A stretch of 64,000 nt of DNA from Clostridia bacterium (lineage in GTDB: Bacteria > Bacillota > Clostridia > RGIG6154), in assembly GCA_017410375.1 (NCBI GenBank), contig JAFQQW010000053.1, forward strand, positions 62,001-126,000, written 5' to 3'. Position numbers and translations under genes: made by a program. Below, piece after piece: positions 9,760 to 60,349 of this stretch. Below the pieces are notes generated by a model. That model saw only the letters and a program-made list of their open reading frames with translations. It ran no database searches and was not told the origin of the DNA. Every line of letters starts with the position of its first letter. The first letter of the stretch is position 1.

Positions 9760-9797
9760 AAGAACTGCAAGCGCATAGCTTGCAGTTCTTTTTTTTA
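9760..9797. terminator. Bidirectional intrinsic terminator, potCD / beta-helix gene
   Basis: A 13-base perfect stem (9760-9772 with 9778-9790) with a five-base loop, followed by T7 on the plus strand and preceded by an A-run that serves the minus strand. It lies between the convergent ends of potCD and the secreted beta-helix gene. Confidence 0.92.
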
Positions 9798-11741: not shown

Positions 11742-11753
11742 TTTGTTTCCCTC

Positions 11754-14051
11754 CTATTCCAGTTCTGACAAAATTGTGCACTCAAATTGTATCTTGGAGT
11801 TTGCGTCCATATAAGATTGCGCTGTACCTAAAAGCGGATAAAAGGCAGTTGCTCTGAAATTGCCTGCAGGGCAACGCATACAAATCCCTGCCTGTTCTTT
11901 TGCGCGAACACCCTTAAGAACGCTCCAGGATGCGTTTTTTGCGCTGTATGCGCCATAATTCCCCAACGCTATAACACCGGGGTCATTCGGAACCTCTGTA
12001 CTTGCATGCAAAACATTGGTTGCAGGCAACGGATTTCCGGAAAACACACCGACAGAGTAATACCCATTCTGTTTAAAGATTGCCTGAATTTCTGCTTCAA
12101 TCTGACTTCCCACCGGACGGAGCACTACTGTTACATCTGCCTTTGCATCGGAGCAGTAAAGGGTTGCCGTGTTTTCGCTGACTGATACCGATTGCGGAAT
12201 TAAATACTGCATTTTTGCCGCATTATAAATATTGGCACCGTAGTATTGCTTTGCATCTCCGCTGTCATCTGCAAATGCAGTATTGAAAATCTGCTGATTT
12301 AAAAGCGGTTTTTCTAAGCTTGCACGTTCCGCCGAAAGAAGCAAAAATCCGAAATCTTCACTTTGCTCTTTGGTTACAATCCATGCACCGTCTTTTTGAT
12401 TTAAAATGCGGTTTTGTACAATCGGTCCGCCGGAGGTATTTACCACAAAGAATTCCATACGGATATTTTCATTTCCAATCGAGGTTTGTGAAACAATTTC
12501 ACCGTTCTCTTTCGCATATTCGGGGAAATCTACAGAGCTTTCCGCAAGTTGTTTTTCCACAACAACCGCATTTTTTGTCAGAACTCCAATATTAGATGCA
12601 GGCTCTGCGCTTAAATTTTTAGTTATAAGCACACCATCGCATCTGGCAAAGAAATCGGAGGTATCTAAAAGTTCCAGTAAATTAGACCCTATTTTTAAAG
12701 ATACAACACCGCCGTCTGCCCAGGCATACCCATCTTTACCATGCGTACCGAAGGTGGGCGCAAGTTGTTCTTGATTAACAGCTACATTAAAAAATCTCGT
12801 TCCGGGCTGATTGTTCGGAAGGTCTCTGGAGCGAACCCACACCTTATATTCGCCTGCCTCAGACACATTGAAATATGCTTTGGCAGGGGTCGCACTTCCG
12901 GGCGCCCCGTTTGTACCGCCTGTCAGAATACCTGTTTCAAGGCTACCGCCGCTTGCACTGCCAACTGTCCACGACCCTAAATTCGAAAAGCTTGAGGGCA
13001 GGAACAAATAGCCGTCTGTTTTGGTAATTTCAGGAATATCCGCAGAGATGATAACCGTTTGGGTTGCATCATCCCAGCCAACCGTTGCCCCCAATGCCTC
13101 TGCCACAAAACGAATCGGTACCATGACACGGTCGTTTCGCAACACTGCAGGTTGATCCAAATAAACGCTGTTTCCTGAAACATTTGCAAGCTGATTACCT
13201 ACCAGAAGTGAAATGTTGATGCTTCCTCTTGTACCGGTAGCCGTCTGCATCGGGTCGTTCCATTGCACTTCGCACCCTAATGCTTCAAACAATGCTCTGA
13301 AAGGCACAAGCGTTCTGCCGTTTTCCACAAAGGGTTTGGAATCATCCTGAAAAATCAGATATTTCTGATTCAACTGAATGGCAATCGTATCAGAAGGTCT
13401 GTCGCTCTGAACGGGAATATTTGCAGGAATATATGTATACACCTTCTCTTTTTCAGGTTCCGGCTCATCTGCCGTCGGTTGGTCAAACGAAACAATCTCC
13501 GCTAAAGGCTGAATACCATTTATTTTAAATGCAGATTCCATTGCCTCTTTGGTTTCAGGTCCGCTGAATTTTTCGTTTGTTGTAAGCACAACCGCCATCA
13601 CACGCCCGTAATTTCTGGAGCTGTCAACAATTTCCACCGTGCAGGGACCTTTTTTAAGTTCAAAGCTGCCCCCTGCTTCCCATGCCCATCCGTCAACATG
13701 GTGTGTTCCGAACGTGTGTTTGGATGTAACGCCGTTTACGCAAAGCGAAAACTTTCTGGAGCCTGCAGATTTTTCGTAGTCGCGGGTGTACGCAAAAAGA
13801 TAATATGTGCCGGCAGACGGCAGTTCAAACGAAACTTTAGCTGACTCCGCTACTGCAGGTTTAGGCGATTTCAAAAAAGGAAGAAATCCGCCACCCGATG
13901 TATCCTTTTCGCCGTCCGTCAAGGTCCAGCTTCCGAGATTTTTTTCAAAATCTGATGCTTTGATATACTGCACAGAATCTGTCGCATGTACAACCGGCAT
14001 CATACTTAAAAGTATACATAATACAGCAACTATGCCTATTATTTTTTTCAT
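11754..14051 (-). CDS. Secreted modular protein: two CBM-like modules around paired CuAO_N1 repeats
   Basis: Exported protein, 765 residues. Order: signal peptide (1-23); module 1 (about 28-165) with GSWTL, an aromatic strand, FGTHHVDGWAWE and a DSS..YGR segment; linker; two CuAO_N1 repeats (about 225-338) with GRTLVPFRALFEALG and DRVMVPIRFVAEALG; module 2 (about 347-485) with PGTRFF, FGTHGKDGYAW and TSDFFARCDG; and a C-terminal beta-rich region (about 500-765). The two modules resemble carbohydrate-binding beta-sandwiches (CBM35-like); that is inference. The C-terminal region matches residues about 670-960 of the 1748-residue protein at 49413-54659 but stops where that protein enters its helical domain, so this one may have no catalytic domain. 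CuAO_N1 repeats are non-catalytic. It is first in an operon with the beta-helix protein. Confidence 0.82.
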   Translation of the reverse strand: MKKIIGIVAVLCILLSMMPVVHATDSVQYIKASDFEKNLGSWTLTDGEKDTSGGGFLPFLKSPKPAVAESAKVSFELPSAGTYYLFAYTRDYEKSAGSRKFSLCVNGVTSKHTFGTHHVDGWAWEAGGSFELKKGPCTVEIVDSSRNYGRVMAVVLTTNEKFSGPETKEAMESAFKINGIQPLAEIVSFDQPTADEPEPEKEKVYTYIPANIPVQSDRPSDTIAIQLNQKYLIFQDDSKPFVENGRTLVPFRALFEALGCEVQWNDPMQTATGTRGSINISLLVGNQLANVSGNSVYLDQPAVLRNDRVMVPIRFVAEALGATVGWDDATQTVIISADIPEITKTDGYLFLPSSFSNLGSWTVGSASGGSLETGILTGGTNGAPGSATPAKAYFNVSEAGEYKVWVRSRDLPNNQPGTRFFNVAVNQEQLAPTFGTHGKDGYAWADGGVVSLKIGSNLLELLDTSDFFARCDGVLITKNLSAEPASNIGVLTKNAVVVEKQLAESSVDFPEYAKENGEIVSQTSIGNENIRMEFFVVNTSGGPIVQNRILNQKDGAWIVTKEQSEDFGFLLLSAERASLEKPLLNQQIFNTAFADDSGDAKQYYGANIYNAAKMQYLIPQSVSVSENTATLYCSDAKADVTVVLRPVGSQIEAEIQAIFKQNGYYSVGVFSGNPLPATNVLHASTEVPNDPGVIALGNYGAYSAKNASWSVLKGVRAKEQAGICMRCPAGNFRATAFYPLLGTAQSYMDANSKIQFECTILSELE

Positions 14052-42463: not shown

Positions 42464-42497
42464 AATCCCGTCTCTTAAACAGAGACGGGATTTTTTT
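42464..42497. terminator. Bidirectional terminator, proS / oxidoreductase
   Basis: An 11-base stem (42464-42474 with 42482-42492), seven-base loop, T7 on the plus side. Confidence 0.88.
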
Positions 42498-43476
42498 AAT
42501 TTTCACATACTTTTAAAACAACCTTGCCGATGTTTTCGTTTCTCTCTAATATCGCGTGTGCCTCTTCTGCCTGCTCTATAGGCAAAATTTTGTAGATGGA
42601 AGGTGTTATTTCACCGCTTTCAATTTTCGGCCACACATTTTCCACCAGTTCGGATAAAATGAATGCCTTGAATTCGGGCGTTCTGTTCCGAAGCATACTG
42701 CCTACCAGGTGCAACCCCTTTGTAAGGAGCGGACGAAGCTGAACGGTTGTTTCAACCCCTGCAAGCGTTGAAATCACAACCCAGTAACCGCCTCTTGCCA
42801 TAAAGGGCAGGCTTTTTCCTAACGTTTCACCGCTTAAGCAGTCCATGGAAACATTTACTGCTGTTCCGTTTTCTTCTTCAGCTTTCAGAACATCTTCCAC
42901 CCTTTGCGTAGTGGAATTGATAATAACATCTGCACCCAAGTCTTTGATTTTGACCGCAATTTCATCCGACAAAACCGATGTAATGACTCTTGCACCAAAG
43001 GCTTTTGCCATGGGAATTGCCACCGATGCCAATCCGGATGCACCTGCAGGGATAAATGCAGTCTGCCCTTTTTCTAAATGTCCTTCCAAAAACAAATTCA
43101 GGTAGGATGTGGCATATGCTTCGGGAAGTGCGGAGGCTTCTTCTAACGTAAGACCTTGTGGGACAGGCATCAGCATATCGTATTTAACAGCCACATATTC
43201 TGCATATCCGCCACCGCCCAAAAGGGCGCAAACCTTATCGCCAACTTCCCATTTTTCCACAGAGCTGCCCTTTTCCGCAATAACGCCTGCAATTTCCAGA
43301 CCCATCCACTCAGGACATCCCGGAGGTGACGGATATTTTCCCTGCCGCTGCAGAAGATCGGCACGGTTTAGTGCTGCCGCGCAGATTTTAACCAACACCT
43401 CGTCTGCTTTAATAACAGGCTTTTTCACCTCACTCCAAACAAGATTTTTATTTTCATCCACAAGCATTGCTTTCAT
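42496..43476 (-). CDS. NAD(P)H:quinone oxidoreductase, medium-chain dehydrogenase family
   Basis: Zinc-free medium-chain dehydrogenase of 326 residues, closest in look to quinone oxidoreductase/PIG3. NRADLLQRQGKYPSPPG and GLEIAGVI are at the N-terminus; the cofactor loop is AGASGLASVAIPMAKAFG. No catalytic zinc cysteine is present. GAGGTGG precedes the ATG. It is the last gene of the six-gene operon read leftward from 48402, 13 bases after the epimerase-like gene. Its role there, reducing or oxidising a pathway intermediate, is inference. Confidence 0.88.
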   Translation of the reverse strand: MKAMLVDENKNLVWSEVKKPVIKADEVLVKICAAALNRADLLQRQGKYPSPPGCPEWMGLEIAGVIAEKGSSVEKWEVGDKVCALLGGGGYAEYVAVKYDMLMPVPQGLTLEEASALPEAYATSYLNLFLEGHLEKGQTAFIPAGASGLASVAIPMAKAFGARVITSVLSDEIAVKIKDLGADVIINSTTQRVEDVLKAEEENGTAVNVSMDCLSGETLGKSLPFMARGGYWVVISTLAGVETTVQLRPLLTKGLHLVGSMLRNRTPEFKAFILSELVENVWPKIESGEITPSIYKILPIEQAEEAHAILERNENIGKVVLKVCEN

Positions 43477-43489
43477 AAAACCACCTCAC

Positions 43490-44497
43490 TCAGTTCAGAT
43501 TATTATCTTTTATATATTCGTCCATGCGCTTACTCAAATCGGTATCGGGAAATTCGTAGCCCTCAGGCACTGCTTCAATCATCATTTTAAGTGCATCATA
43601 AAGAGGTGTCAATTCCTCCTGCTTCATGCCTGTTACCTCTAAAACCTTGGAATTATCGGTGATTCTGTCAAACATTCTTGCGTATTCCAACTGCCAGCGG
43701 GTATTTAATCCCATATCGGGATTTAAAATTTTCAAATAATCTTCTTTATCCACCCAAACCGCTTCAAGGCCTGCAATTTCTTTATAATAGCCGGCAATCT
43801 CCTCCCAGGTTCTGTGTTCGGACGAACATACATTATACACTTCTTTTTTTGCCTTTTCATTAAACAAAAGCTTTGCAATCATCATGGACACATCTCCTGC
43901 CCAACACAGTGTTGCAGGTTTGTCCTTTGCCTGCAAAGGCAAAACCACTTTTTTACCCTTTACCGCACGGCCGACCGTGTCATGTGCCTCTAATGTTACC
44001 AGCTGATACCGCATTTTTGAAAAGGTTGTGGCAGGGCGAACAATTGTCCAGTTATCATAGCCGGATAAAAACAAGAGATTTTCTGCTTTGGCTTTGTGTA
44101 TGCAATAATCATTAGATGCCAGAAGCTTTTCGTCGGTTGAAACATCCAAAAGTCTTGGAGATGTTTCTTTTACGGGAATTTCTTCGTTTGCATATACACG
44201 GCAGGAAGACAAGAAAATATAGTGCTTTGTATTTTCCAAAAACAGCTTGTAGTAGTGAATGAAATCCCGCTTGTGATAAATCATAAAGTCAACAACACCG
44301 TCAAAATTCTGAGAGAGTAAACCCTTCAAAAATTCCATATCCTTGGCGTTGCCTTTAATGCAGGTCACCTGCTCGTTATAAGGTACTTCATCGTCCAGTG
44401 ACACAGCTGTTACCTGATACCCCATGTCTGCCAAATACGGCACGATATACTGTCCCATCGCACCCGTAGATCCTAAAACCAATACTTTTCTTTTCAC
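43490..44497 (-). CDS. NAD-dependent epimerase/dehydratase-like protein (extended SDR)
   Basis: Extended short-chain dehydrogenase/reductase, 335 residues. The Rossmann loop GSTGAMGQYI is at residues about 8-17. The second motif is present as ...SSCRVYAN, but the usual YxxxK catalytic pair appears as YCIHKAKAE, so Tyr and Lys are kept. VRPATTF follows. The start is GTG at 44497, behind AGGAGAGG. It may act on a nucleotide sugar or a free sugar derivative; isoflavone-reductase-like atypical SDRs are an alternative. Mid-operon position. Confidence 0.85.
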   Translation of the reverse strand: MKRKVLVLGSTGAMGQYIVPYLADMGYQVTAVSLDDEVPYNEQVTCIKGNAKDMEFLKGLLSQNFDGVVDFMIYHKRDFIHYYKLFLENTKHYIFLSSCRVYANEEIPVKETSPRLLDVSTDEKLLASNDYCIHKAKAENLLFLSGYDNWTIVRPATTFSKMRYQLVTLEAHDTVGRAVKGKKVVLPLQAKDKPATLCWAGDVSMMIAKLLFNEKAKKEVYNVCSSEHRTWEEIAGYYKEIAGLEAVWVDKEDYLKILNPDMGLNTRWQLEYARMFDRITDNSKVLEVTGMKQEELTPLYDALKMMIEAVPEGYEFPDTDLSKRMDEYIKDNNLN

Positions 44498-44515
44498 AAA
44501 AACCTCTCCTTTTTC

Positions 44516-45583
44516 TTACCGCTTATATACCACTTCTCCGTTAACAATTGTCAGAACACAACTGTATCCTTTATCACATGTAATACGGCAACCCGCTTTA
44601 TCCGTCAGATCAAAACCGTCGTTTGTATGGTCAAGAACGACAATATCTGCGTTTCTTCCGACCTCTAAATAACCCCATTCCTGTTCTTTACCCAGCGCTT
44701 TTGCAGGCGTGGAAGTAACCGCACGCAATATGTCTTCTTCACACATTCCAAGATGCTTTGCAATACTCATACATAAAGTCATGCCGTATCTGCCGCCTCT
44801 TACGTAGGCGCTGAGTCTTGTAATATCGGTACTGATGATATCAGGCAACGCACCGTTTGAAATGGCTTCTTTAAAGATTTTAAAATCAGTATGTACATGT
44901 CCTGCCAAACCGGCGTCAATGAAAACGCCTCTTTTTTTAGCATTTTCAATGCACAAAAAACCGTCTTCAAGGACATTGTTTTTGCCGCCATGATACGAGT
45001 GGGTCAGGATATCCCCTTTTCTTAAGCATTCTAAAAGATCTGACATGGGAACGGGAGAATTTGATGAATGAACCATAACCTTAAGCTTCTTGCTTTGTGC
45101 ATACTCTACCGCCTCACACAAAGGTTTTATATCTTTTATATCAGAAATTAGTGTGTCGAAATACACCTTAACACCTATCGCCTTGTCGCCATACTTTTCG
45201 AGTAATTGCTCCGTATGGTCAAAACACGCTTTATTTTCCCGAAAGCTGACACCGACAAAGACAGTATTTTTCAACAAAAAGGATTCAAGCATTTCCTTAT
45301 CCCCTTTTCCGCCACCTGCATCTGCCGCCGCAGTTACACCAAAAGGAATTGTGCTAAGCTCCGGATGTACACCAAACTTATCACAGGAAATTCCACGCAT
45401 GTGCACATGTGCATCCACAAGCCCGGCAGAGACGATTTTTCCCCTTGCATCATACATAAATTCAGCTTTTTCGTCTATGGATTCTGCAATTCGATTCACC
45501 TTGCCATTCTTAGTTAAAACATCCGCAAACCAAAAGTGTTTGCCATCCCAAACCTTTCCGTTTTTTATTAAAATTTCAGTCAT
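44516..45583 (-). CDS. Amidohydrolase/deacetylase family metallohydrolase
   Basis: TIM-barrel metal hydrolase of 355 residues. The N-terminal metal site is GLVDAHVHMRG; GVKVYFD contains the lysine expected to be carboxylated; THSYHG and AGHVHTDF provide histidines, and STDITR the catalytic aspartate. This matches the EF0837/Atu3266-like deacetylase group, which often sits in sugar-acid or amino-sugar catabolic clusters. An AGGTG box fits the ATG at 45583. One base separates it from the Gfo/Idh stop. Removal of an N- or O-acyl group in the pathway is inference. Confidence 0.88.
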   Translation of the reverse strand: MTEILIKNGKVWDGKHFWFADVLTKNGKVNRIAESIDEKAEFMYDARGKIVSAGLVDAHVHMRGISCDKFGVHPELSTIPFGVTAAADAGGGKGDKEMLESFLLKNTVFVGVSFRENKACFDHTEQLLEKYGDKAIGVKVYFDTLISDIKDIKPLCEAVEYAQSKKLKVMVHSSNSPVPMSDLLECLRKGDILTHSYHGGKNNVLEDGFLCIENAKKRGVFIDAGLAGHVHTDFKIFKEAISNGALPDIISTDITRLSAYVRGGRYGMTLCMSIAKHLGMCEEDILRAVTSTPAKALGKEQEWGYLEVGRNADIVVLDHTNDGFDLTDKAGCRITCDKGYSCVLTIVNGEVVYKR

Positions 45584-45584
45584 A

Positions 45585-46574
45585 TCAACGTTCACCTACC
45601 ACTCTTAAAAGTGTTTTCTGTACTACAAATTCATGCGCATACGAATACGGATTTTCTTTTTCACCCATTACCGACAGGTAAAAATCTTTCATCATTTCGT
45701 CATATCTCGAAAGGGTCGGCACATCCTGCACATTCACTGTTTCCTGCATATTTCTGTAGGCGTTTTGCGCAATATCCGTTGTGGATTTTGTCATTTTTAC
45801 ATCAAGTTCAATCGGTTTGATTTCAACTGTTCCCTTACTTCCCATAACCGCAAAACGACGCATCCCCCAACCATTTACTTCCACCGAAAGATTGGTAATT
45901 CTTGCAATTGCCTTTTCGTATTCTAAAACCGCAAAGCAATTGTCATCTGTATGCACATCTTCAAATCCTGTTTGCTTGATAAAAGGGTACACCTTTTCCG
46001 GCTCGCCTAAAATGCTGACCACCAAATCAATCAGGTGCGACCCGAAAATATACATAGACCCGCCCTTAAACTGTTGAAGCCACTCTCTGTATGCTTTGGA
46101 ATGGTAGGTACTCATTTCCGCATCAATCTGATAAATTTCGCCTAAATCTCCGTTTTTTATCATTTGCATCAGCTTCTGTACTGCGAAATTATAGCGATAC
46201 ATATATCCCATCTGCACCGTAAGTTTTTTGTCTTTCGCTGCATTTAAAAGATTTTCGAATTCAGCAAGTGTACCGCTTGCAGGCTTGTCAATATGCACAT
46301 GCTTGCCTGCATTCACGCATTTTTGTGCAACCTTGGTTAAATTCCACACGTCACACTCCACCAAAATCGCACCACACTTTTTAATTAGCTCGTCCACCGA
46401 AAGACGTGGCAAGTCCTTATAGCAATCAAGATTTCCGCGTTTTTCAATCCATTCTTCGTTTTCCTCCGCATATCCAACCACTTCAAACAGCTCAGGGAAT
46501 TTACGCACCGCAAGCATTTTACCTTCCCCGTGGTTATGCCCGATACCAATCTGACCGATTTTGATTTTCTGCAT
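45585..46574 (-). CDS. Gfo/Idh/MocA family oxidoreductase
   Basis: NAD(P)-dependent dehydrogenase of sugars or cyclitols, 329 residues. The cofactor loop is GQIGIGHNHGEGK at the N-terminus, and the family EKP motif is HIDKPASG. The C-terminal alpha/beta domain starts near MGYMYRYN. The ATG overlaps the stop of the upstream dehydrogenase (TAATG), a classic coupled junction, with GGAGAG before it. The family includes inositol and glucose dehydrogenases and unsaturated-uronate processing enzymes; the substrate is unknown. Confidence 0.92.
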   Translation of the reverse strand: MQKIKIGQIGIGHNHGEGKMLAVRKFPELFEVVGYAEENEEWIEKRGNLDCYKDLPRLSVDELIKKCGAILVECDVWNLTKVAQKCVNAGKHVHIDKPASGTLAEFENLLNAAKDKKLTVQMGYMYRYNFAVQKLMQMIKNGDLGEIYQIDAEMSTYHSKAYREWLQQFKGGSMYIFGSHLIDLVVSILGEPEKVYPFIKQTGFEDVHTDDNCFAVLEYEKAIARITNLSVEVNGWGMRRFAVMGSKGTVEIKPIELDVKMTKSTTDIAQNAYRNMQETVNVQDVPTLSRYDEMMKDFYLSVMGEKENPYSYAHEFVVQKTLLRVVGER

Positions 46575-47578
46575 TACACATCTCTCCAATCAAACACCGT
46601 ACCTAAAGGAAATTCCGGATTATCACAAAGCTCGTTGAAAATCTCGGGAGCATTTTTGGGGTGTACAACTCTGGAGATAATCGGCTCAACCTGAATCCGT
46701 TTTGCGGAAATTAAGTCTAAAATTGCTTTACAATCATCCTGATGCGTCCAATGGTGCGGATAGGATTCAACCTTCGGACGCACAAAATTGTGTGCACCGA
46801 TAAGCTTTACACCCGGGCGATGCACCTGCTGATAGTAATCCACATCGTTATCCGAAACTCTGGTACATCCCAAAAGTGAAATTCTGCCCATCCAGGATGC
46901 GCATTCTAATGCCTGATGCATCGCTTTGGAAACACCCGTAACCTCTACACAACCGTTTATACCCTTGCCTTTGGTCAGTTCTTTTACCTTTTGCACAAAG
47001 CTTTCATCCGAAGGATCTAAAGCATAGTCAGCATCAAGCTTTAAGGCAAGATCCCGACGTGCAGGATTTAAATCCGCTACAATCAAAGGATTTACACCCG
47101 AAATCCTTAAAAACTGCGTGGCAAAAATGCCAAGCAACCCAAGTCCCATGACCATTGCCGACTCACCGATTTCCATTTCAAGCTTACGCACACCGCCAAG
47201 CCCCATGGATGCAATAATGACAAAAGCCGCCTCTAAAGAGGAAACAGAATCATCCTCGACTTTTGTAATGTCTGCCTCGGGACGGATATTGTATTTCCCG
47301 TGATTACCATGGTATACCAGTACTCTGTCGCCTACGGCGACAGACTTTACATCTTCTCCGATTGCCTCTACATAGCCGACTCCACAATATCCAAGGCTTT
47401 TCGGAAATCCTGCGCCGGTATTTGGCATTGCTAAAATATTTGCCCGTTCTGTACCGCCACTGACTACAGTGTATTCCATACGAACCAACACATCTTTTGG
47501 GTCTAATGTGTCCTTAAGGTCGGTCTGTAAAAATTCGGCCTTATGCACATCTGTAAATAAAATCTGTTTGTTTTGCAT
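46574..47578 (-). CDS. Medium-chain dehydrogenase (threonine/sorbitol dehydrogenase-like)
   Basis: Dehydrogenase of 334 residues with a GroES-like N-terminus and a Rossmann domain (GLGLLGIFATQFLRISG). The place where zinc enzymes have GICGTD reads VVSGGTERAN, so the catalytic cysteine is missing and this may be a zinc-independent or unusual member. LGYCGVGYVEAIG is the second landmark. It follows the dehydroquinase-like gene by nine bases and is coupled to the Gfo/Idh gene, so the two probably act in sequence on one substrate. Confidence 0.87.
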   Translation of the reverse strand: MQNKQILFTDVHKAEFLQTDLKDTLDPKDVLVRMEYTVVSGGTERANILAMPNTGAGFPKSLGYCGVGYVEAIGEDVKSVAVGDRVLVYHGNHGKYNIRPEADITKVEDDSVSSLEAAFVIIASMGLGGVRKLEMEIGESAMVMGLGLLGIFATQFLRISGVNPLIVADLNPARRDLALKLDADYALDPSDESFVQKVKELTKGKGINGCVEVTGVSKAMHQALECASWMGRISLLGCTRVSDNDVDYYQQVHRPGVKLIGAHNFVRPKVESYPHHWTHQDDCKAILDLISAKRIQVEPIISRVVHPKNAPEIFNELCDNPEFPLGTVFDWRDV

Positions 47579-47587
47579 AAAAATCCC

Positions 47588-48402
47588 TCACATAAATTTT
47601 TTCATGTTATCTATAATCGTCTTGGCAGTCTTTAAATCGAGTTGCTCCATGGTACTGCTCTCCGAATAGCGGTCAACACAAAAAGCAATCTGTCCACCCA
47701 AAATGGGATTCAAGATTCTGGACAAAACACCCGTTTTACCGCACACATGATAGCTTATAGGTGTTTTGACTTCTTTTTTAAGCACCGTCATCGTTTTTAC
47801 GCATTCCCAAAGGTCTTCTTCCGATTCGGAAAGAGTTACTATCTTAAGGATATCCGGCTTTCGCTGTTCTAAAACAGCGCCAAATCTACCACCTGGTCAC
47901 AATTCATACGAACAAAGGGATGACAGGATAAAAGAACTTCCGCGCCCTTTTGATGCACCTTTTCAATCAACTCGCATTGCTTTTCTATAATTGCTTCGTC
48001 GGTTACCACTTCTCTTGGACTATCCTTTGTAAAGGAATATTTATTTTCTCCATAAAATCCGGTTTTGGATTTTGCATCAAAGGTGTACCCTTGCATATCA
48101 ATGCCTGCAACACCTGCATCCACTGCACGCAAAAATAAATCTTCTCTTTCTTCTTCCGAATAACCCGATTCTTCCCAATTATAGCCTTTGTTGTAGTTTA
48201 AAGCTAAAATCGGAAGCTTTGAACCGTTTACAATCGCTTTTAAAGTATCAAGGTCTGTATTTTCCAGGCACGACAGATGCAAGTCCACCATGTCTGCACC
48301 ATCAAACAAGCAGTTTTTGATTTCAGCAATTGCTGCCTTTGCACTTTTCTCACGCACAACGCCTGCAAGTGCAGGTGCCGCGATTTCAGATAATTTTTTC
48401 AT
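47588..48402 (-). pseudogene. Type I 3-dehydroquinate dehydratase-like protein, frameshifted
   Basis: The first gene of the operon is split in two frames. From ATG at 48402 (behind AAGGAGG) 177 residues run to a TAG at 47871-47869; a second frame continues from about 47886 to 47588. Together they give a TIM-barrel protein like type I dehydroquinases: GADMVDLHL at the first strand, LSCHPF with the conserved histidine, PDILKIVTLSES with the candidate Schiff-base lysine (only in the second frame), and an end near GGQIAFCVDRYSE. The first active-site glutamate strand reads GIDMQG, so it is divergent. The two frames are both open only over about 15 bases. It is either a real mutation or a sequence error; programmed shifting is unlikely since no slippery heptamer is seen. 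Confidence 0.8.
47862..47879. repeat. Perfect inverted repeat at the frameshift site
   Basis: CGCTGTT-CTAA-AACAGCG: two perfect 7-base arms and a 4-base loop. The premature stop lies in the loop (47869-47871), and the repeat sits inside the only interval where the frame can change. Confidence 0.85.
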
Positions 48403-48421
48403 AAAATCCCTCCTTACCGCC

Positions 48422-48450
48422 ATTTTATCAAAACAGAAAACCGAAAACAA
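48422..48450 (-). promoter_or_regulatory. Weak promoter of the six-gene catabolic operon
   Basis: Minus strand TTGTTT (48450-48445), 17-base spacer, TAAAAT (48427-48422). The poor -35 and the inverted repeat directly upstream suggest activator dependence. Confidence 0.45.
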
Positions 48451-48482
48451 TATCAAATATGATGTTTTTATCATTTTTGATA
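48451..48482. promoter_or_regulatory. Long inverted repeat, candidate operator for AraC (2)
   Basis: TATCAAATATGAT (48451-48463) and ATCATTTTTGATA (48470-48482) are inverted copies matching at 12 of 13 positions, six bases apart. The repeat lies immediately upstream of both divergent promoters. Confidence 0.6.
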
Positions 48483-48540: not shown

Positions 48541-49323
48541 TTGCAATTAGATATTTTATCAAATTTGGTCATCCAAAAGGTATACTCCACTACAACACTC
48601 TATAGCGAAGAAAATCGAAAAGCCAAAAGAGTGAACCGCGAGAAATGGGCGGTCATTATAAAATATGAGGGTGAAACCGTATACACATCAAGAGGCAGCA
48701 CTTATATATCAAACGCAAATAATCTTATAATTCTGCCAAAAGGTTGTTCGTATGAATGGAGCTGCAAACGCTCGGGACATTTTTCGGTTATTGAGTTCGA
48801 GAGTGAAGCAACGTGTGATACTATTTTTTGTTTCCCTGTTCAAAACAGTGACAAAATTCTAAAGCTATTTAAGGAGCTTGAATACAAAAGAACCTTAAAA
48901 AAGCCCTTGTTTGAGGCAGAAAGCATCCGGGATACCTACTCTATTATCCTTTTACTCACACAAGCTCTGCAAAGGAAATACTTACCCACAAAAAAAGCGG
49001 ATAAGCTGACCCCTGCCCTGGACTATATGGCTAAAAACTATAATTTACCCATTACAAATGACAAACTTTCCTCCCTCACCGGCCTTTCTACCGTATACTT
49101 CAGAAAATTATTTACTGAAGTTTATGGCATATCTCCTATTACATATGTACATAAGCTTCGGATAAAGAAAGCCAAAGAAATGCTTGGAAGCGATTACGGC
49201 AGTATAACCAATATCGCTGAGGCATTGGGTTATTTAAACATTTATGATTTTTCAAGGGCTTTTAAAAAACATGTAGGCGTTTCGCCTTTAAAATACGAAA
49301 AAAACATGCACAAAGTGCGATAA
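48541..49323 (+). CDS. AraC family transcriptional regulator (2)
   Basis: Regulator of 260 residues: N-terminal cupin-like sensing domain (NNLIILPKGCSYEW), C-terminal double helix-turn-helix (ITNDKLSSLTGLSTVYFRKL and ITNIAEALGYLNIYDFSRAF, then VGVSPLKYE). The start is TTG at 48541 behind AAAGGAAG. It is divergent from the dehydroquinase-like/dehydrogenase operon and is its likely regulator. It ends at a terminator shared with the convergent giant secreted protein gene. Confidence 0.92.
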   Translation: MQLDILSNLVIQKVYSTTTLYSEENRKAKRVNREKWAVIIKYEGETVYTSRGSTYISNANNLIILPKGCSYEWSCKRSGHFSVIEFESEATCDTIFCFPVQNSDKILKLFKELEYKRTLKKPLFEAESIRDTYSIILLLTQALQRKYLPTKKADKLTPALDYMAKNYNLPITNDKLSSLTGLSTVYFRKLFTEVYGISPITYVHKLRIKKAKEMLGSDYGSITNIAEALGYLNIYDFSRAFKKHVGVSPLKYEKNMHKVR

Positions 49324-49412: not shown

Positions 49413-52400
49413 TTACTGTTCTTCCGGATACAATGTCAGCTCAAACTTATGTGTTTGTGCTTTGTCGTTGTCGTAATCCTTTAGTGGTGCATTTTCTGTC
49501 GGAAGCACAAGCAAGGTGATATTGCCGTCTGCTCGCATTTCGTTTCCGGCAACCGTAGATTCAAAGGGAATGTCAGCATTTCCGTTTACGCCTTTAAGCT
49601 TACCCTTTACAGTTAAACCTTTCAAAATGCTTTCCTTCACATCAAAGGGGAATTTGTCAGTCGAGATAATTAATCGGAAGTAACCGCCACCTAATCCTTG
49701 ATAGGTACATGTCATTTCGAAGGGGTCAAATTTTAAAGGCTGTTTGATATTGGTTAAAGTAATTTCGGGTGCCGTGCCTGTTTGTTTTAAAGTCTTAAGC
49801 GTTCCGCCACCTGTTTTTTTAACTTCACCGTCTGCCGTTGTTACGGTAACGGTATAAGAAATGGGCTTTGTTACATCTTCAACCTTAATAATGGTTTCAA
49901 AAGGCCATCTGTCCACAACTACATTTTCTTTTTTGCCGTCTACGGTGTATTCAAAGGTAACGGATTTTGTATTTTCTGCTTTTTCATCAGTATATACATA
50001 TGCATAGTATGCATCGTCATTAAACTGCAGAATGTATCCCTTGCCGTTATCATGCTCGGAAACGGTTTCACCAAGCGCGTTGGAATAGGTGTAATCGGTT
50101 GCCCAGGAAGGTTTCTTTACAGACGGAATATCAAGTACAACCGTCTGAATGCTACGCACCGGAACAGAAACCGTAAACGCACCGTTTACCACATCAATTT
50201 CGGTTTTGTTGCCCGAAGCATCGTACAATGTTGCTTTACCGCTGTAGCCTGCACCACCCTCAATTTTTTCACCAAGGGTAACGGTTTCGGTTAAGTTTTC
50301 CTGCGCTTCATTCATCAGTGCGATGGCAAGCTTGCCGTCTTTTCTGCCACAGATGTAGTCAAGATTTACATTGCCGTTTGTATCAATGATTCCGCGGTCA
50401 ACCCAAAGATAGAAGCCGTCTTCATCATAGAACCTGCCGGGCTTGTGACCATAACAATAGTTGCTGAAATACGCATATCCGGACTGGAAAGTGCTTTCAA
50501 AATCAATTTTACCGTTTGAACGCTCCCAGGCAGAGTTTACAATATAGTCCTGAAGCATGCCTAAGAACACCGGGATATGATGCCAGTAAATAGAGGTATA
50601 GTCAGGTCCCTCATACGGGTATTCCGGCTTCATCTGATGTGTGATATATCGGTCGATATAGTAACCCGGATACGTACCGAATCTGCCAATCATGGCGTTG
50701 TGTGCCATCGTTTTGAAATAATCTTCACCGGTATATTCCGCAAGTCTTAAAAGCGCACCCGTCCAGTTGTTCATGGTAATGACACTCCCCATACCCGGGG
50801 TACGGGCATGCTCTGTACCAAACCCTGCTCTTGCAGGAAGCCACCCGGGAACGGTTTCAGATTCAGGTTTTGCCATTTCACGGGAGCTTGTATATTCTCC
50901 TAACTTATTGCCGGGACGCCATTGGTGGTCGCCGTGCCAGAAAAATCCAGCACCGTCAGCGGGAAGAGGTCTGCCATAGGCTTTCTCGGATTCAATTTCA
51001 TATTCAGCAGTCGCATAATCATTCTGATAGCCGGTAGTCCATGTGCCGGTTGCAAGTAAGTACGCAGCTTCCTTTGCATGGTCAAGGTATTTTTGCTCAC
51101 CTGTAAACTCGTATGCATTTAAAAATGTGTCTACCATAATGATATAATCCACATACACAAACACATTCACAAAATGCTTGTCACGTTTTTCACCCGTGTT
51201 GGGGTTATCCAGAATATATGCTTCTGCCTGTTTGATAACCGCTTGTTTATACACATCATTTTCACTGTATTTATAGCGAGCAATGTTGCTGTCCAAATCG
51301 TCCGATGCGCTTTCGTTTAACGCATACTGCATTAAGTACGGAATTCTGCCCTGGCTCATTTCATACAGACCGCCATAAACGTTTGCGCCAAAGCCTGCAT
51401 TAACTGTACCGAGTGTGCCGGATTTATACATAGCATCGCCTTCGCCCTGCACAGTCATGTGATAGCTTCCGCGTGTTAGACTGAATGCAATAGCAGGAAT
51501 AAGTCTTGTTTCCAAGAATTCTTCATCGTCCGTCCAGAGATACACCTGCCCAAATGCCTGGGGATTGGAAACGGATACAAGATTTTTGCGCTCCATATTG
51601 TAATTGCCCATACCCTTGGCATCCCAGCCACCGTAATAATCGTCTTTAAGCAGGTCGATTGTGTTATAAAGTGCATCATTTAACGAAGTGTAGTAGTTGG
51701 TACGCAAATCCGAGAAGTTGTACATATCTTCTGCGATATGCATATACGTTTCTTCCCAGTCATTGAAATCGTTCACCAGACGATATGCGAACCTATAAGT
51801 CTCGCCTGCTTTGCGGTTTGCACCTTCTGTTCCAAAAAGCGGTGCCATAATCTGAGGACGAACCAACTCATCTACCGTGCGGAAAGTAATGCCATAGGTA
51901 GAGGTTGATGGATACACAAAATCCTGTCCTACCATTTCAGGCTCGATTACAAAGCCGGAGGTCAGCATTTTACCCGGTGTTTTCACATTATTGTCAGCTG
52001 TATAATGGAAGGTCGTCATAGGCGTAAACATGTTGGTTTCGGCAAAGAGAATATCCTTTTTAGGCACAGCATGTTTTACAAACATCAGGGGTGCTGTAAC
52101 CGTATCAAACTGCTCTTCGGTTACGCCATCGCCACTATAAATCAGGAAAGAATACGCACCATCCTGCTTAAAGGTAGCAGAAAGCTCTGCTTTGGGATAG
52201 GATACAAAATCGTCAAACCCATAGGTTGTGGTAGCCGTTGTATACGGATTATCATAAGCTAATACAATTTTGCCGTCCTCTGTTTTTTGGAAATCGGAAG
52301 CAAGCAGATAGCTTGAAACACCTGCTTTATAAAACGTGTTTAAGTTAACCGCCATTTCCTGACCGTCTTTTAAGATGGTCTGGGTAAAAAGATGTGAATT

Positions 52401-54659
52401 GAAATTGGAATCGAAATCGTTACCTGCATAAGAGGATTTATGAGCCGATACAAGCATGTAGCCCGTTTCCTCTGTTCTGTCCTTGATTTTAACCCACTGT
52501 CCATTGTGCTTTGCGTAAATTTCATCCTGCACAAAGGTGCCTTTCGGCCCGTTTACCTGATAAAAGGAAAGCTTGTAGCTGTCGTTTTCAATGGATTCGG
52601 ATTTTATAACCTCGCCCGCTTCTTTTGCCCAGGACGGATAACTCTCGGGATAGAATTCCGCAAAGGGATCATAACCGGAAGCGACTTTTAACATTTCATT
52701 CTTGTCATCCGAGGGAACATAATCCAGGTCATCTGTAATAAACACACCACCGCAACGGGCATAGAATGCAGAGGTGTCAATCATGGACACTTTATGTGCA
52801 CCCGCTTTAAATTCATAAGTACCTGCCTTTTGCCAGGAAAAACCTTCTTTGCCATGGGCACCGAATTTTACATCCGAACGCACGCCATCCACTTCCGCAT
52901 GGAAGAAACGGGTACCGGGCTGATTGGTTGCATAGTCTTTGGAATTAATCCATACATTATAGGTGCCGTCTTTCGGGATACTGAAGGATGCGGTTGCAGG
53001 TTTTAAATCCAAAGTACTTACATCTGCGGATTCGCCCAATGTGTTGCCGCGAATGTAATCTGCTTCGTACACCCATGTACCCAAATCCGAGAAATTCTGC
53101 GGTAAAAGTAAAATTGCCTGCGGAACAGAATCTGCTACAATAGAAACTGTCTGGGTCGCATCGTCCCAGGTTACGGTTGCACCATATGCTTCCGAAACAA
53201 AACGGAGCGGAACAAGTGTTCTGTCGTTGATAAGCACGGCTGACTGGTCAATTTCCACCTGCTCACCGTTGATTCTTGCGATATTACTGCCAATGCTGAC
53301 CGATACAACACGGCTGTTACGGTTACCGGTTGCGGTTTGTGTTTCGTCATTCCAGCTCACCGTCGCACCAAGTGCTTCAAAAATTGCGCGCAAAGGTACC
53401 ATGGTTCTGTCGTTAATCAACACAGGGTCTACGTCAAACTGCATGTATTCCCCATTAAAACGGACCGCAATTTCGCTGTCCGGTCTTTGTTGTTCGGAAG
53501 ATGTATCAATGACAACCTTGGAAGCATCGTAACGGTTGTTTTTCAGCCAGTCTGCTAAAATTGCATTTTCCCAGGGCGGCGTGAAATCGTTGTCATCGGT
53601 TACAAGTAACATATCCAATCTGCCATACGCGCCGGTATGCTTAACAGACAAATTGTGCTCCCCTGCCGTAAGCTCGATTTTACCTGCCTTTTCCCATTCC
53701 CAGCCATCTTTGCCATGTACGCCCACAAGACTCGGAAGCGTTGTGCCGTCAACCGAAACAGTAAAATGGCGACTGCCGGAATTGGAGGGTACATCCTTTG
53801 TTCTTGCCCAAACGGTATATATGCCTGTTTTGGGGACAGTAAGTGTCATGATACCTTCCTGATCCTTTTTACCACCACCGTGAAAATAAGGACCTGCAAG
53901 CTGCGAAAGTGTATCCGTTACTAAAAATGTATCAATATTCTCTAAATTTTCAGGTGAAATATTAAAGTAGTTTTTATCTGCCTTTAGTGTGTATGCACTC
54001 GGCGTACGTTCCGGGTCATCAGGTGCAACCGTAATTTCTTCCGGTTTCACCTCAGCCTTTACTTCTTCCACCTTGATTTCGGTTAACTCCACATCTAAAG
54101 CGGATGCAGGGGTTTTAACAATCTTTGCGCGCTTGTCCTTTAACCCTTTTTTAATTTCGTTCGGGTCTTCGGGTGGCACAAAGCCTTCTTCGGAAGAAAT
54201 TGCAAACGCTTCTGCACGGGCATAGTATTTTGTAACATCCGAAACATAAAGAGAATGTGTTCCCTTTTCTAAAGAAACCGTTCCTGCTTTTTCCCATGCC
54301 CAGCCGTTTTTGCCGTTTTTACCCAGCATGGTAGAAAACAGTTTTCCGTCAAAGCCTGCTTTGAAATTACGTGTTCCACCAGTAGTATCACTGGAGCGAA
54401 CCCACAATGTAAAAGCGCCATCTTCCTTAACAGTAAACGAAGCAACAGCAGGCGCTGTTTCTCCGTTTGCAGTTAAGCCCCGAAGCACATTGAAGGTAGA
54501 ATTCAGTTGCGGTTCAACCACAACCCAGCTTCCGGGATTGTCCGAAAAATCGTCTGCGCTGAAATAGTATGTTTCCCCTGTTTTCGCATACACCGAAAGC
54601 GGTAATACGAAATTAAAAAGCATACTGACAGCAAGGAATAAACCTAAGATTTTTTTCAT
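49413..54659 (-). CDS. Giant secreted modular protein, probable polysaccharide-degrading enzyme
   Basis: Exported protein of 1748 residues. Order: signal peptide (1-25); module 1 (about 30-163); a Lys/Glu linker; module 2 (about 228-362); two CuAO_N1 repeats (about 398-510; NDRTMVPLRAIFEALG, NDRTLVPLRFVSEAYG); module 3 (about 516-650); a beta-rich region (about 670-960) shared with the 765-residue protein at 11754; a long aromatic-rich helical region (about 965-1400) that looks like an alpha/alpha toroid of glycoside hydrolases or polysaccharide lyases; and C-terminal beta domains. Each module carries GSW/GTW, GxRxF and HGKDGWxWE-like motifs. I recognise no named catalytic family, so the enzyme activity is inference. 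AAAGGA fits the ATG at 54659. It is divergent from AraC (3). Confidence 0.82.
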   Translation of the reverse strand: MKKILGLFLAVSMLFNFVLPLSVYAKTGETYYFSADDFSDNPGSWVVVEPQLNSTFNVLRGLTANGETAPAVASFTVKEDGAFTLWVRSSDTTGGTRNFKAGFDGKLFSTMLGKNGKNGWAWEKAGTVSLEKGTHSLYVSDVTKYYARAEAFAISSEEGFVPPEDPNEIKKGLKDKRAKIVKTPASALDVELTEIKVEEVKAEVKPEEITVAPDDPERTPSAYTLKADKNYFNISPENLENIDTFLVTDTLSQLAGPYFHGGGKKDQEGIMTLTVPKTGIYTVWARTKDVPSNSGSRHFTVSVDGTTLPSLVGVHGKDGWEWEKAGKIELTAGEHNLSVKHTGAYGRLDMLLVTDDNDFTPPWENAILADWLKNNRYDASKVVIDTSSEQQRPDSEIAVRFNGEYMQFDVDPVLINDRTMVPLRAIFEALGATVSWNDETQTATGNRNSRVVSVSIGSNIARINGEQVEIDQSAVLINDRTLVPLRFVSEAYGATVTWDDATQTVSIVADSVPQAILLLPQNFSDLGTWVYEADYIRGNTLGESADVSTLDLKPATASFSIPKDGTYNVWINSKDYATNQPGTRFFHAEVDGVRSDVKFGAHGKEGFSWQKAGTYEFKAGAHKVSMIDTSAFYARCGGVFITDDLDYVPSDDKNEMLKVASGYDPFAEFYPESYPSWAKEAGEVIKSESIENDSYKLSFYQVNGPKGTFVQDEIYAKHNGQWVKIKDRTEETGYMLVSAHKSSYAGNDFDSNFNSHLFTQTILKDGQEMAVNLNTFYKAGVSSYLLASDFQKTEDGKIVLAYDNPYTTATTTYGFDDFVSYPKAELSATFKQDGAYSFLIYSGDGVTEEQFDTVTAPLMFVKHAVPKKDILFAETNMFTPMTTFHYTADNNVKTPGKMLTSGFVIEPEMVGQDFVYPSTSTYGITFRTVDELVRPQIMAPLFGTEGANRKAGETYRFAYRLVNDFNDWEETYMHIAEDMYNFSDLRTNYYTSLNDALYNTIDLLKDDYYGGWDAKGMGNYNMERKNLVSVSNPQAFGQVYLWTDDEEFLETRLIPAIAFSLTRGSYHMTVQGEGDAMYKSGTLGTVNAGFGANVYGGLYEMSQGRIPYLMQYALNESASDDLDSNIARYKYSENDVYKQAVIKQAEAYILDNPNTGEKRDKHFVNVFVYVDYIIMVDTFLNAYEFTGEQKYLDHAKEAAYLLATGTWTTGYQNDYATAEYEIESEKAYGRPLPADGAGFFWHGDHQWRPGNKLGEYTSSREMAKPESETVPGWLPARAGFGTEHARTPGMGSVITMNNWTGALLRLAEYTGEDYFKTMAHNAMIGRFGTYPGYYIDRYITHQMKPEYPYEGPDYTSIYWHHIPVFLGMLQDYIVNSAWERSNGKIDFESTFQSGYAYFSNYCYGHKPGRFYDEDGFYLWVDRGIIDTNGNVNLDYICGRKDGKLAIALMNEAQENLTETVTLGEKIEGGAGYSGKATLYDASGNKTEIDVVNGAFTVSVPVRSIQTVVLDIPSVKKPSWATDYTYSNALGETVSEHDNGKGYILQFNDDAYYAYVYTDEKAENTKSVTFEYTVDGKKENVVVDRWPFETIIKVEDVTKPISYTVTVTTADGEVKKTGGGTLKTLKQTGTAPEITLTNIKQPLKFDPFEMTCTYQGLGGGYFRLIISTDKFPFDVKESILKGLTVKGKLKGVNGNADIPFESTVAGNEMRADGNITLLVLPTENAPLKDYDNDKAQTHKFELTLYPEEQ

Positions 54660-54783: not shown

Positions 54784-54806
54784 AAATGCAAAGAGGTGGT
54801 TTGAAA

Positions 54807-55694
54807 ATGGCAAGCTCTGTAAGATATGGTCCGAAAAACAGTTTAAAGGTCCATAAACTAGAATGCACATACCTTCATTTTGATACTATTGGTGATACGT
54901 TCGTCACTGAAAGTGGCAGAAACACTGTTGATATTTTGTTTGGCGCAGAAGGAACGGTAACCTTAGAACATGGCGGTGTTACCGATATTTTAACACCCGA
55001 AAGTATGCTTATTTTACCCATTCGAGAGAATTGTACCCTACGTGCCCGGACAGAAAAAGCAACCGTACAGAGAATTTGTGTTCTACCCAATGTGCTGTAC
55101 AACATTTTTCAGAACGTGTTTGAAACCAAATACATTCTCCCCTTTACCGCGGTAAGTAGACCACATCAGATTTTTTTTGACGACGAAACACTAAAGGATA
55201 CGTCGATTCCCGAAACCATACAACGTATTTTTGCAGAATTTCGTTCACAGGATTGTTGCTTTGAAGTTTCTATGAAAATCGACATATATTCCATTTTTCT
55301 GTGGATTGCAAGATTCTGGCATAAGCAAGGCGAGATGAGCGACCAAATCAATGACATCAGTCGCGGTGCTTTAAACAAGTTGGATTTTGTGTTGGAATAT
55401 ATTGAACAGAACTACAATACACGTCTTGACATTGCAAAGCTTGCTTACTCTGTCGGGTTTAGTTACAGCTATTTTGCAAAAACTTTCAAAGCCGGTACCG
55501 GGTACAAATTTACAGAGTATGTAAACAATCTGCGACTGCGACGTGCTGAGCAGATGCTGTTTGAAAAGCCGGATGCACCGATTACGTATATCGCCATGGA
55601 ATGCGGTTTTAATTCTACCAGCTATTTTATTCAGCTTTTTAAAGAAAGAAATGGTGTTACGCCGAACGAATTCAAAAGACGCCAGGGTGTATAA
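54807..55694 (+). CDS. AraC family transcriptional regulator (3)
   Basis: Regulator of 295 residues. The N-terminal about 190 residues contain a cupin-like domain (LTPESMLILPIRENC). The C-terminus has the double helix-turn-helix: LDIAKLAYSVGFSYSYFAKTF and ITYIAMECGFNSTSYFIQLF, then NGVTPNEF. The frame reaches an ATG at 54786, but AAGAGGTGG is placed for the ATG at 54807. Divergent from the giant secreted protein, its probable target. Confidence 0.92.
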   Translation: MASSVRYGPKNSLKVHKLECTYLHFDTIGDTFVTESGRNTVDILFGAEGTVTLEHGGVTDILTPESMLILPIRENCTLRARTEKATVQRICVLPNVLYNIFQNVFETKYILPFTAVSRPHQIFFDDETLKDTSIPETIQRIFAEFRSQDCCFEVSMKIDIYSIFLWIARFWHKQGEMSDQINDISRGALNKLDFVLEYIEQNYNTRLDIAKLAYSVGFSYSYFAKTFKAGTGYKFTEYVNNLRLRRAEQMLFEKPDAPITYIAMECGFNSTSYFIQLFKERNGVTPNEFKRRQGV

Positions 55695-58992: not shown

Positions 58993-59030
58993 AAAACAGC
59001 TGTAAATGCGATGACATTTACAGCTGTTTT
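58993..59030. terminator. Bidirectional terminator, RNase J / LRR protein
   Basis: A perfect 16-base stem (58993-59008 with 59015-59030), six-base loop, AAAA left and TTTTT right. Confidence 0.9.
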
Positions 59031-60349
59031 TAATATTCTTCAATTCTGAATCCCTTATTCGTTTCATCCGAAGCGCACTGTCTGAAGCAACATATAAATG
59101 GACATCTGGGAGCTTTAACCCCATAGACTGTGGTTGTTTTCGGCACGGAAAGCCCAAAGCTTTGCCATTTTTCTTTTGTGCCAAGAAAAAAAACTGCTTT
59201 TAAACCGTCGCATTTCAAAAAGGCTCCCGATCGAATTTTTGTAACGTTTGCAGGCAAAATAATCTCTGTAAGATTGTGACAGTCATAGAATGCAAAGTTT
59301 TCTATGGTTGCAACATTTTTAGGAATTGTAATATCCACAAGATTATTACACTCACAAAATGCTTCTTCGCCAATAAATGTAAGGTAATCCGGTAGTTTAA
59401 CCTTTTTAAGATTTCCGCACCCTCTAAACGTTTTGTGCCCTAAAGTCGTTACCCCGTTAGGAATTGTAACCGTTTCAAGACTATTACAATTCATGAATGC
59501 ATGACTGCCGATATAGCTCAACCCTTTACCTAACTCAACACTTTTAACACCGCTACATCCAAAAAAAGCATAATCACCAATAAAAGAAACACCATCCGAA
59601 AGAGTAATGCTTTCAAGAGAAGTGTAACCATAAAATGCACTCCCGGCAACGGAGGTTATTTCGCTCGGGATAACCAAATCAGTCAACAGGACATTATCCA
59701 AATACAAATTCTTCGCGTAACTCAACGGATTCGAATTCATGTTAAAATCAATCCTGCACCACGACGAAAGGTTTGCAATGTATACATTTTCCAAAGCGGT
59801 ACATCCGGCAAATGCGTGATCCCCTATCGTGGTGATACTGTCCGGAAACGTTATATTTTTAAGTGCACTACAATATTGAAATGCATATGCACCTATGCTC
59901 GTTACACCATCCGGAAACGTTATATCTTCTAAGCTTTTACAATAACAGAATGCACGGTCTCCTATTTTAGATATATTGTTGGGAATAGTAACATTTTTGA
60001 GGCTTGTGCAAAATTGAAACGCCTGGTTTCCTATTGACATTACGCTGCTCGGAATGTTAACACTTTCAAGATTATTACAATCAAAAAAAGAAGCCTTCCC
60101 AATTGTAGTTATGCCTTCTTCCACAACAACACTTTTTATGCTATCTCTGTTGTCATACCAAGGAGTCTGTGTAGAATCAGAAAAAGCTATATCGCCTGCA
60201 CCACTGATAGTAAGTGTACCGGAATCATCCAATACCCATGTAACATTTTCACCGCATGTACCGGATGTTTCTGCATTCGATACAATCGGAATCACTATCA
60301 GAAAAGCACATACAAACATAAAAAGAATCATCTTTTGGATTTTTTTCAT
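59030..60349 (-). CDS. Secreted leucine-rich-repeat protein (BspA/LRR_5 type)
   Basis: Exported protein of 439 residues: signal peptide (about 1-26), a short domain with GTCGENVTWVLDDSGTLTIS and GAGDI, then about ten LRR_5 repeats of the pattern TSIGxxAFxxCxxLxxVxIP. Such BspA-like proteins are surface or secreted adhesin-like scaffolds. No membrane or cell-wall anchor is present. The last 25 residues (RCPFICCFRQCASDETNK region) are Cys-rich and unlike the repeats, so the gene may have lost its original C-terminus. AAAGGAGG precedes the ATG. Confidence 0.9.
   Translation of the reverse strand: MKKIQKMILFMFVCAFLIVIPIVSNAETSGTCGENVTWVLDDSGTLTISGAGDIAFSDSTQTPWYDNRDSIKSVVVEEGITTIGKASFFDCNNLESVNIPSSVMSIGNQAFQFCTSLKNVTIPNNISKIGDRAFCYCKSLEDITFPDGVTSIGAYAFQYCSALKNITFPDSITTIGDHAFAGCTALENVYIANLSSWCRIDFNMNSNPLSYAKNLYLDNVLLTDLVIPSEITSVAGSAFYGYTSLESITLSDGVSFIGDYAFFGCSGVKSVELGKGLSYIGSHAFMNCNSLETVTIPNGVTTLGHKTFRGCGNLKKVKLPDYLTFIGEEAFCECNNLVDITIPKNVATIENFAFYDCHNLTEIILPANVTKIRSGAFLKCDGLKAVFFLGTKEKWQSFGLSVPKTTTVYGVKAPRCPFICCFRQCASDETNKGFRIEEY

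Follow-up and report, generated by a model that had tools for sequence, protein, structure and literature searches.

A forty-copy family of secreted-looking proteins with a predicted alpha-toroid core and a possible role in glycan cleavage

Our analysis of a 64,000-nucleotide stretch of a Clostridia genome (here, the window) identified a 1748-residue secreted-looking protein whose core represents a family without a name in Pfam, NCBIfam, or the PDB, which are the libraries that "unnamed" covers throughout. The genome holds 40 family members, all intact and 1233 to 2317 codons in length, which together make up 68,794 codons, or 7.46% of its 2.766 Mb. Literature searches found no published description of the family. 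Our preferred explanation, to which we give a probability of about 0.45, is that the protein is secreted and multimodular and cleaves glycans, probably by hydrolysis, and that its copies have become specialized.

Architecture and copy number

The open reading frame was confirmed as 1748 codons plus a stop, with an ATG start at position 54659 preceded by AGGATGG. Its N-terminus is signal-peptide-like, and the N-termini of the paralogues are comparable. The features of the protein are as follows.

49413..54659, minus strand: 1748-residue multidomain protein, secreted-looking (ORF translation)
54585..54659, minus strand: putative signal peptide, residues about 1-25, MKKILGLFLAVSMLFNFVLPLSVYA (inferred from sequence)
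54162..54575, minus strand: CBM-like beta-sandwich module 1, residues 29-166 (profile E 4.4e-37)
53574..53960, minus strand: CBM-like module 2, residues 234-362 (profile E 3.9e-36)
53139..53459, minus strand: Cu_amine_oxidN1 (PF07833) domain, residues 401-507 (Pfam E 2.5e-39)
52698..53123, minus strand: CBM-like module 3, residues 513-654, weak Golvesin_C (profile plus weak Pfam match)
51768..52613, minus strand: predicted N-terminal beta domain of the core, residues about 683-964 (AlphaFold2 model)
50520..51758, minus strand: predicted (alpha/alpha)6-like toroid, residues about 968-1380 (two AlphaFold2 models)
50130..50495, minus strand: predicted C-terminal beta-sandwich, GH30C-like, residues about 1389-1510 (AlphaFold2 models, Foldseek to GH30 beta domains, weak PF17189)
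49422..49742, minus strand: C-terminal beta module, residues about 1640-1746 (short genome matches to query positions 887-993)
50811..50813, minus strand: Glu1283 codon
50661..50663, minus strand: Tyr1333 codon
50577..50579, minus strand: His1361 codon

The three CBM-like modules of the initial annotation are indeed related to one another (35 to 41% pairwise identity, E 8e-22 to 2e-23), and a profile built from module 3 recovers all three with E values of 4e-36 to 4e-59. They resemble Golvesin_C weakly, scoring under the Pfam cut-off. Where two CuAO_N1 repeats had been proposed, Pfam finds a single Cu_amine_oxidN1 domain. A copper amine oxidase label was rejected because the N1 domain alone matches, with NCBIfam PRK14696, whose cut-off is 1278, reaching 26 bits. 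The C-terminal beta module has additional copies at other places in the genome, and a search of the window with Rfam found no RNA.

The Cu_amine_oxidN1 and Golvesin_C-like modules also occur beyond the 40-copy family. In the window, positions 9795-14051 (minus strand) encode two adjoining secreted-looking proteins, one of 765 residues that carries these two modules and a GH28/beta-helix protein of 648 residues. Cu_amine_oxidN1 has 69 matches across the 2.77-Mb genome versus 10 in a related 1.5-Mb genome (G003). A further secreted-looking protein of 439 residues (59030-60349, minus strand) carries BspA-type leucine-rich repeats (LRR_5, E 2.7e-87).

Family members were counted from the open reading frames around genome matches to the C-terminal 995 residues of the protein, which fall in dozens of places; an independent profile search also returned 40. 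All 40 paralogues, like the rows of a 44-sequence alignment spanning six phyla, match the toroid profile and retain Glu1283, Tyr1333, and His1361, the combination by which we define the core family. With this many intact paralogues in the same genome, the reading frame at 49413-54659 is not a chance occurrence. Because the members are mostly 25 to 50% identical in the core, their expansion is not recent; the most divergent paralogue (L033, G000:C2:38562-43487) shows 20% identity.

Predicted fold of the core and its closest matches

No catalytic family scored over threshold in Pfam or NCBIfam for the core (residues about 683-1510), and no PDB sequence matched it. AlphaFold2 modeled residues 655-1530 from a 39-sequence alignment with a pLDDT of 91.6 and a pTM of 0.91, and residues 955-1520 from a 59-sequence alignment with values of 93.7 and 0.94. 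The modeled order is a beta domain, about twelve toroid helices, and a beta-sandwich, with domain borders set from predicted secondary structure. These two confident models bear out the order of beta-sandwich, alpha toroid, and beta domain that had been proposed from the sequence. The accompanying statement that no known family could be matched also stands for Pfam, NCBIfam, and the PDB, by sequence and by fold: we found no confident match to a characterized family, and the model contains a toroid.

A PDB sequence search with the single 1748-residue protein gave no match; the family profiles matched a short helix-pair motif in PDB sequences, which we did not count as family membership. By structure, no whole-domain Foldseek match to the core in the PDB exceeded a TM of 0.5. 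The toroid by itself has generic matches in the PDB to GH127/GH146 and GlcNAc-2-epimerases, and the last domain matches GH30 beta domains. Matches of the toroid in a viral structure library were weak (best E 8.7e-4 at a TM of 0.15), and the SSV19 tail protein, a further PDB match, had a TM of 0.37 or less.

At the level of profiles, the helical region has local similarity to GH127, GH76, GH88, and C5-epimerase. Like the core, the GH127/GH146 beta-L-arabinofuranosidases contain a helical toroid, and their profile PF07944 scores a local motif, YExTGxxKYLDAA, in 26 of the 40 cores (best 4.4e-7). The match, however, spans part of the toroid, the TM is at most about 0.3, and whole-protein assignment fails: PF07944 does not match the window protein, and matches in the others are partial and, where shown, under the cut-off. 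GH76, GH88, and GlcNAc-2-epimerase-type (alpha/alpha)6 proteins share the generic helix-pair motif and barrel, but their matches are short and local, the invariant Glu/Tyr/His set does not transfer to them, and their TM to the query is below 0.35. The GH30 C-terminal beta domain (PF17189) superposes on the C-terminal beta-sandwich at an rmsd of about 3 A over about 95 residues, whereas the GH30 catalytic barrel is missing from the window protein, leaving the GH30C-like part as an accessory domain only.

For the full core, the top Foldseek match is BACCELL_00875 (PDB 5NOK/5NO8), the PL27 L-rhamnose-alpha-1,4-D-glucuronate lyase (E 1.6e-8, probability 1.00). At 11% identity to the core, the PL27 enzyme likewise places a beta domain before its barrel, having an N-terminal beta-sandwich plus an (alpha/alpha)6 barrel (PMC8377490). 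The window protein differs in carrying the additional GH30C-like domain. The PL27 match nevertheless has a TM of only 0.30/0.37 and an rmsd of 12.7 A, falls outside the top 50 when the toroid is searched alone, and has no counterpart by sequence, as two family profiles run against PDB sequences did not recover 5nok/5no8 up to E 10.

Candidate active site, neighborhood, and mode of action

No substitution of Glu1283, Tyr1333, or His1361 occurs in the 44 sequences of the cross-phylum alignment or in the 40 paralogues. Across that alignment, position 1326 (Arg in the window protein) varies between R and K, and position 1371 between D and E. Also fixed in every paralogue are Arg986, Asn999, Arg1052, Arg1063, Tyr1099, Tyr1183, Tyr1395, and Asn1450. 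In the models, loops hold Glu1283 and Tyr1333, and His1361 lies at or near a helix start; residue 1371 lies mid-helix and may be structural rather than catalytic. This pattern of conservation and loop positions speaks for active copies rather than decoys.

If the protein is secreted and cleaves glycans, its beta modules would bind glycan or wall, and the mouth of the toroid would hold an active site formed from Glu1283, Tyr1333, His1361, and Arg1326. Cleavage would most likely be hydrolytic: Glu1283 would act as the acid, and the base would be the D/E at 1371 or some other group. The products would be taken up and then processed by neighboring oxidoreductases and hydrolases. The enzyme would have been multiplied within the genus, reaching 40 copies that often lie beside an AraC-type regulator, and different copies would probably serve different linkages or glycans. 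Consistent with an enzyme are the confident toroid-plus-beta models, the local similarities of the helical region, the GH30C-like character of the C-terminal domain, the invariance of the three residues, and the sugar-active neighbors described below; against it stands the absence, in the libraries searched, of statistically strong homology to a characterized family.

A second possibility, unlikely though to be taken seriously, is that the protein is a polysaccharide lyase, in which Tyr1333 and His1361 would take the C5 proton of a uronate and arginines would neutralize the carboxylate, with beta-elimination leaving an unsaturated sugar. The combination of Tyr, His, and Arg with a single Glu also suits a lyase, and the invariant Tyr and His, the near-invariant Arg, and the best full-core fold match, to PL27, speak for one. 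In addition, the neighborhood of one Paenibacillaceae relative (L055) includes a KDPG aldolase, a DHDPS-family aldolase, and an MR/MLE-type enzyme of the enolase superfamily. KDPG aldolase, which the Clostridia genome also encodes, is not specific to lyase pathways. In this genome (96% complete), GH88/GH105 (PF07470) gave sub-threshold matches only, to about 70 positions, and KduI was absent, while controls were detected in both searches. The lack of GH88/GH105 over the cut-off and of KduI disfavors a uronate-lyase pathway and, together with family neighbors in this genome that include GH2, GH20, GH27, GH95, GH106-like, and BNR proteins, slightly favors a hydrolase over a lyase.

It is improbable that the protein lacks catalytic activity and, with a retained toroid fold, serves at the surface in glycan binding or as a structural component. 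The many non-catalytic modules and a paralogue expansion like that of surface-protein families would fit such a role, but polar Glu, Tyr, and His residues fixed in every copy and across phyla, mostly at loop positions, would not.

The surroundings of the gene in the window are as follows.

54786..55694, plus strand: AraC-type regulator, divergent from the candidate enzyme gene (HTH_18, 1.9e-21)
48541..49323, plus strand: second AraC-type regulator, downstream flank (Pfam)
42496..48474, minus strand: downstream gene set of DHquinase_I-like, Zn-ADH, Gfo/Idh/MocA, amidohydrolase, NAD epimerase, and Zn-binding dehydrogenase genes (domain matches)

The downstream set, on the same strand, possibly consists of co-expressed catabolic genes; a comparable ADH and Gfo/Idh pair adjoins another paralogue (L046). 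An AraC-family gene, from a set defined by sequence clustering of the open reading frames neighboring paralogues, lies within 1 kb of 16 of the 40 copies versus 4.4 expected (binomial P 2e-6). This expectation derives from the 115 HTH_18 matches in the 2.77-Mb genome, compared with 10 in the related 1.5-Mb genome. Co-duplication of regulators with enzymes was not supported, as their distances are uncorrelated (Mantel r 0.03, p 0.33). Outside this genome, a Paenibacillus family member has a GH97 neighbor. Least probable is cleavage of pre-oxidized sugars (keto-glycosides) together with neighboring FAD or Gfo/Idh/MocA oxidoreductases: FAD_oxidored genes do lie near family members in Pedobacter and one Paenibacillus and adjoin one paralogue here, and two paralogues, including one in the window, have a Gfo/Idh/MocA and ADH pair as neighbors, but these partners seem to be cytosolic and the family members secreted, and most of the 40 copies have no such partner.

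Distribution and significance of the family

The initial annotation had suggested a founding member of a new CAZyme family; the protein instead belongs to a set of 40 paralogues within this one genome, and diverged relatives span at least six phyla. Profile searches of same-genus genomes returned 19 matches in one (80% complete) and 4 in another, and found no members in three other genera of the same taxonomic family. Only 2 of 397 other sampled genomes of the phylum carry the family, one copy each, and an earlier search of 99 relatives is consistent with this rarity. In wider genome contigs, an alignment-based profile was needed to identify 42 loci, a scan with the window protein alone having found nothing. 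Relatives in Paenibacillaceae are 46 to 48% identical, whereas those at 23 to 30% come mostly from Pedobacter, Algoriphagus, Chitinophagaceae, Planctomycetota, Opitutales, Acidobacteriota, and Armatimonadota, some of them in tandem sets. An uncultured Opitutales contig (L080, 2106-19204) carries five family members in tandem. The homologue in Paenibacillus agaridevorans T-3040 (L064, 9455-14228) is split over two overlapping frames, reflecting a frameshift or a sequencing error.

In a quick tree, in which 22 forks are weakly supported and branches are long, the Paenibacillus sequences are nested among the paralogues of the genus, and L033 groups with a Bacteroidota/Planctomycetota/Acidobacteriota clade and not with its 39 sisters. 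This pattern is compatible with horizontal transfer.

More tentatively still than for the enzyme itself, we suggest that these proteins form a CAZyme family missing from CAZy and occurring at low frequency in several phyla, and that one genus has expanded it into 40 substrate-specialized secreted enzymes, many beside an AraC-type regulator. If so, a repertoire drawn from one family would represent an alternative to large loci of many different enzyme families. A single unnamed family occupying 7.5% of the genome is a large annotation gap in a bacterium seemingly specialized in complex glycans. Should the core prove active on glycans, it would constitute an unassigned family with 40 natural variants in one genome, and would offer a direct route to learning how a single toroid scaffold can be adapted to different linkages.
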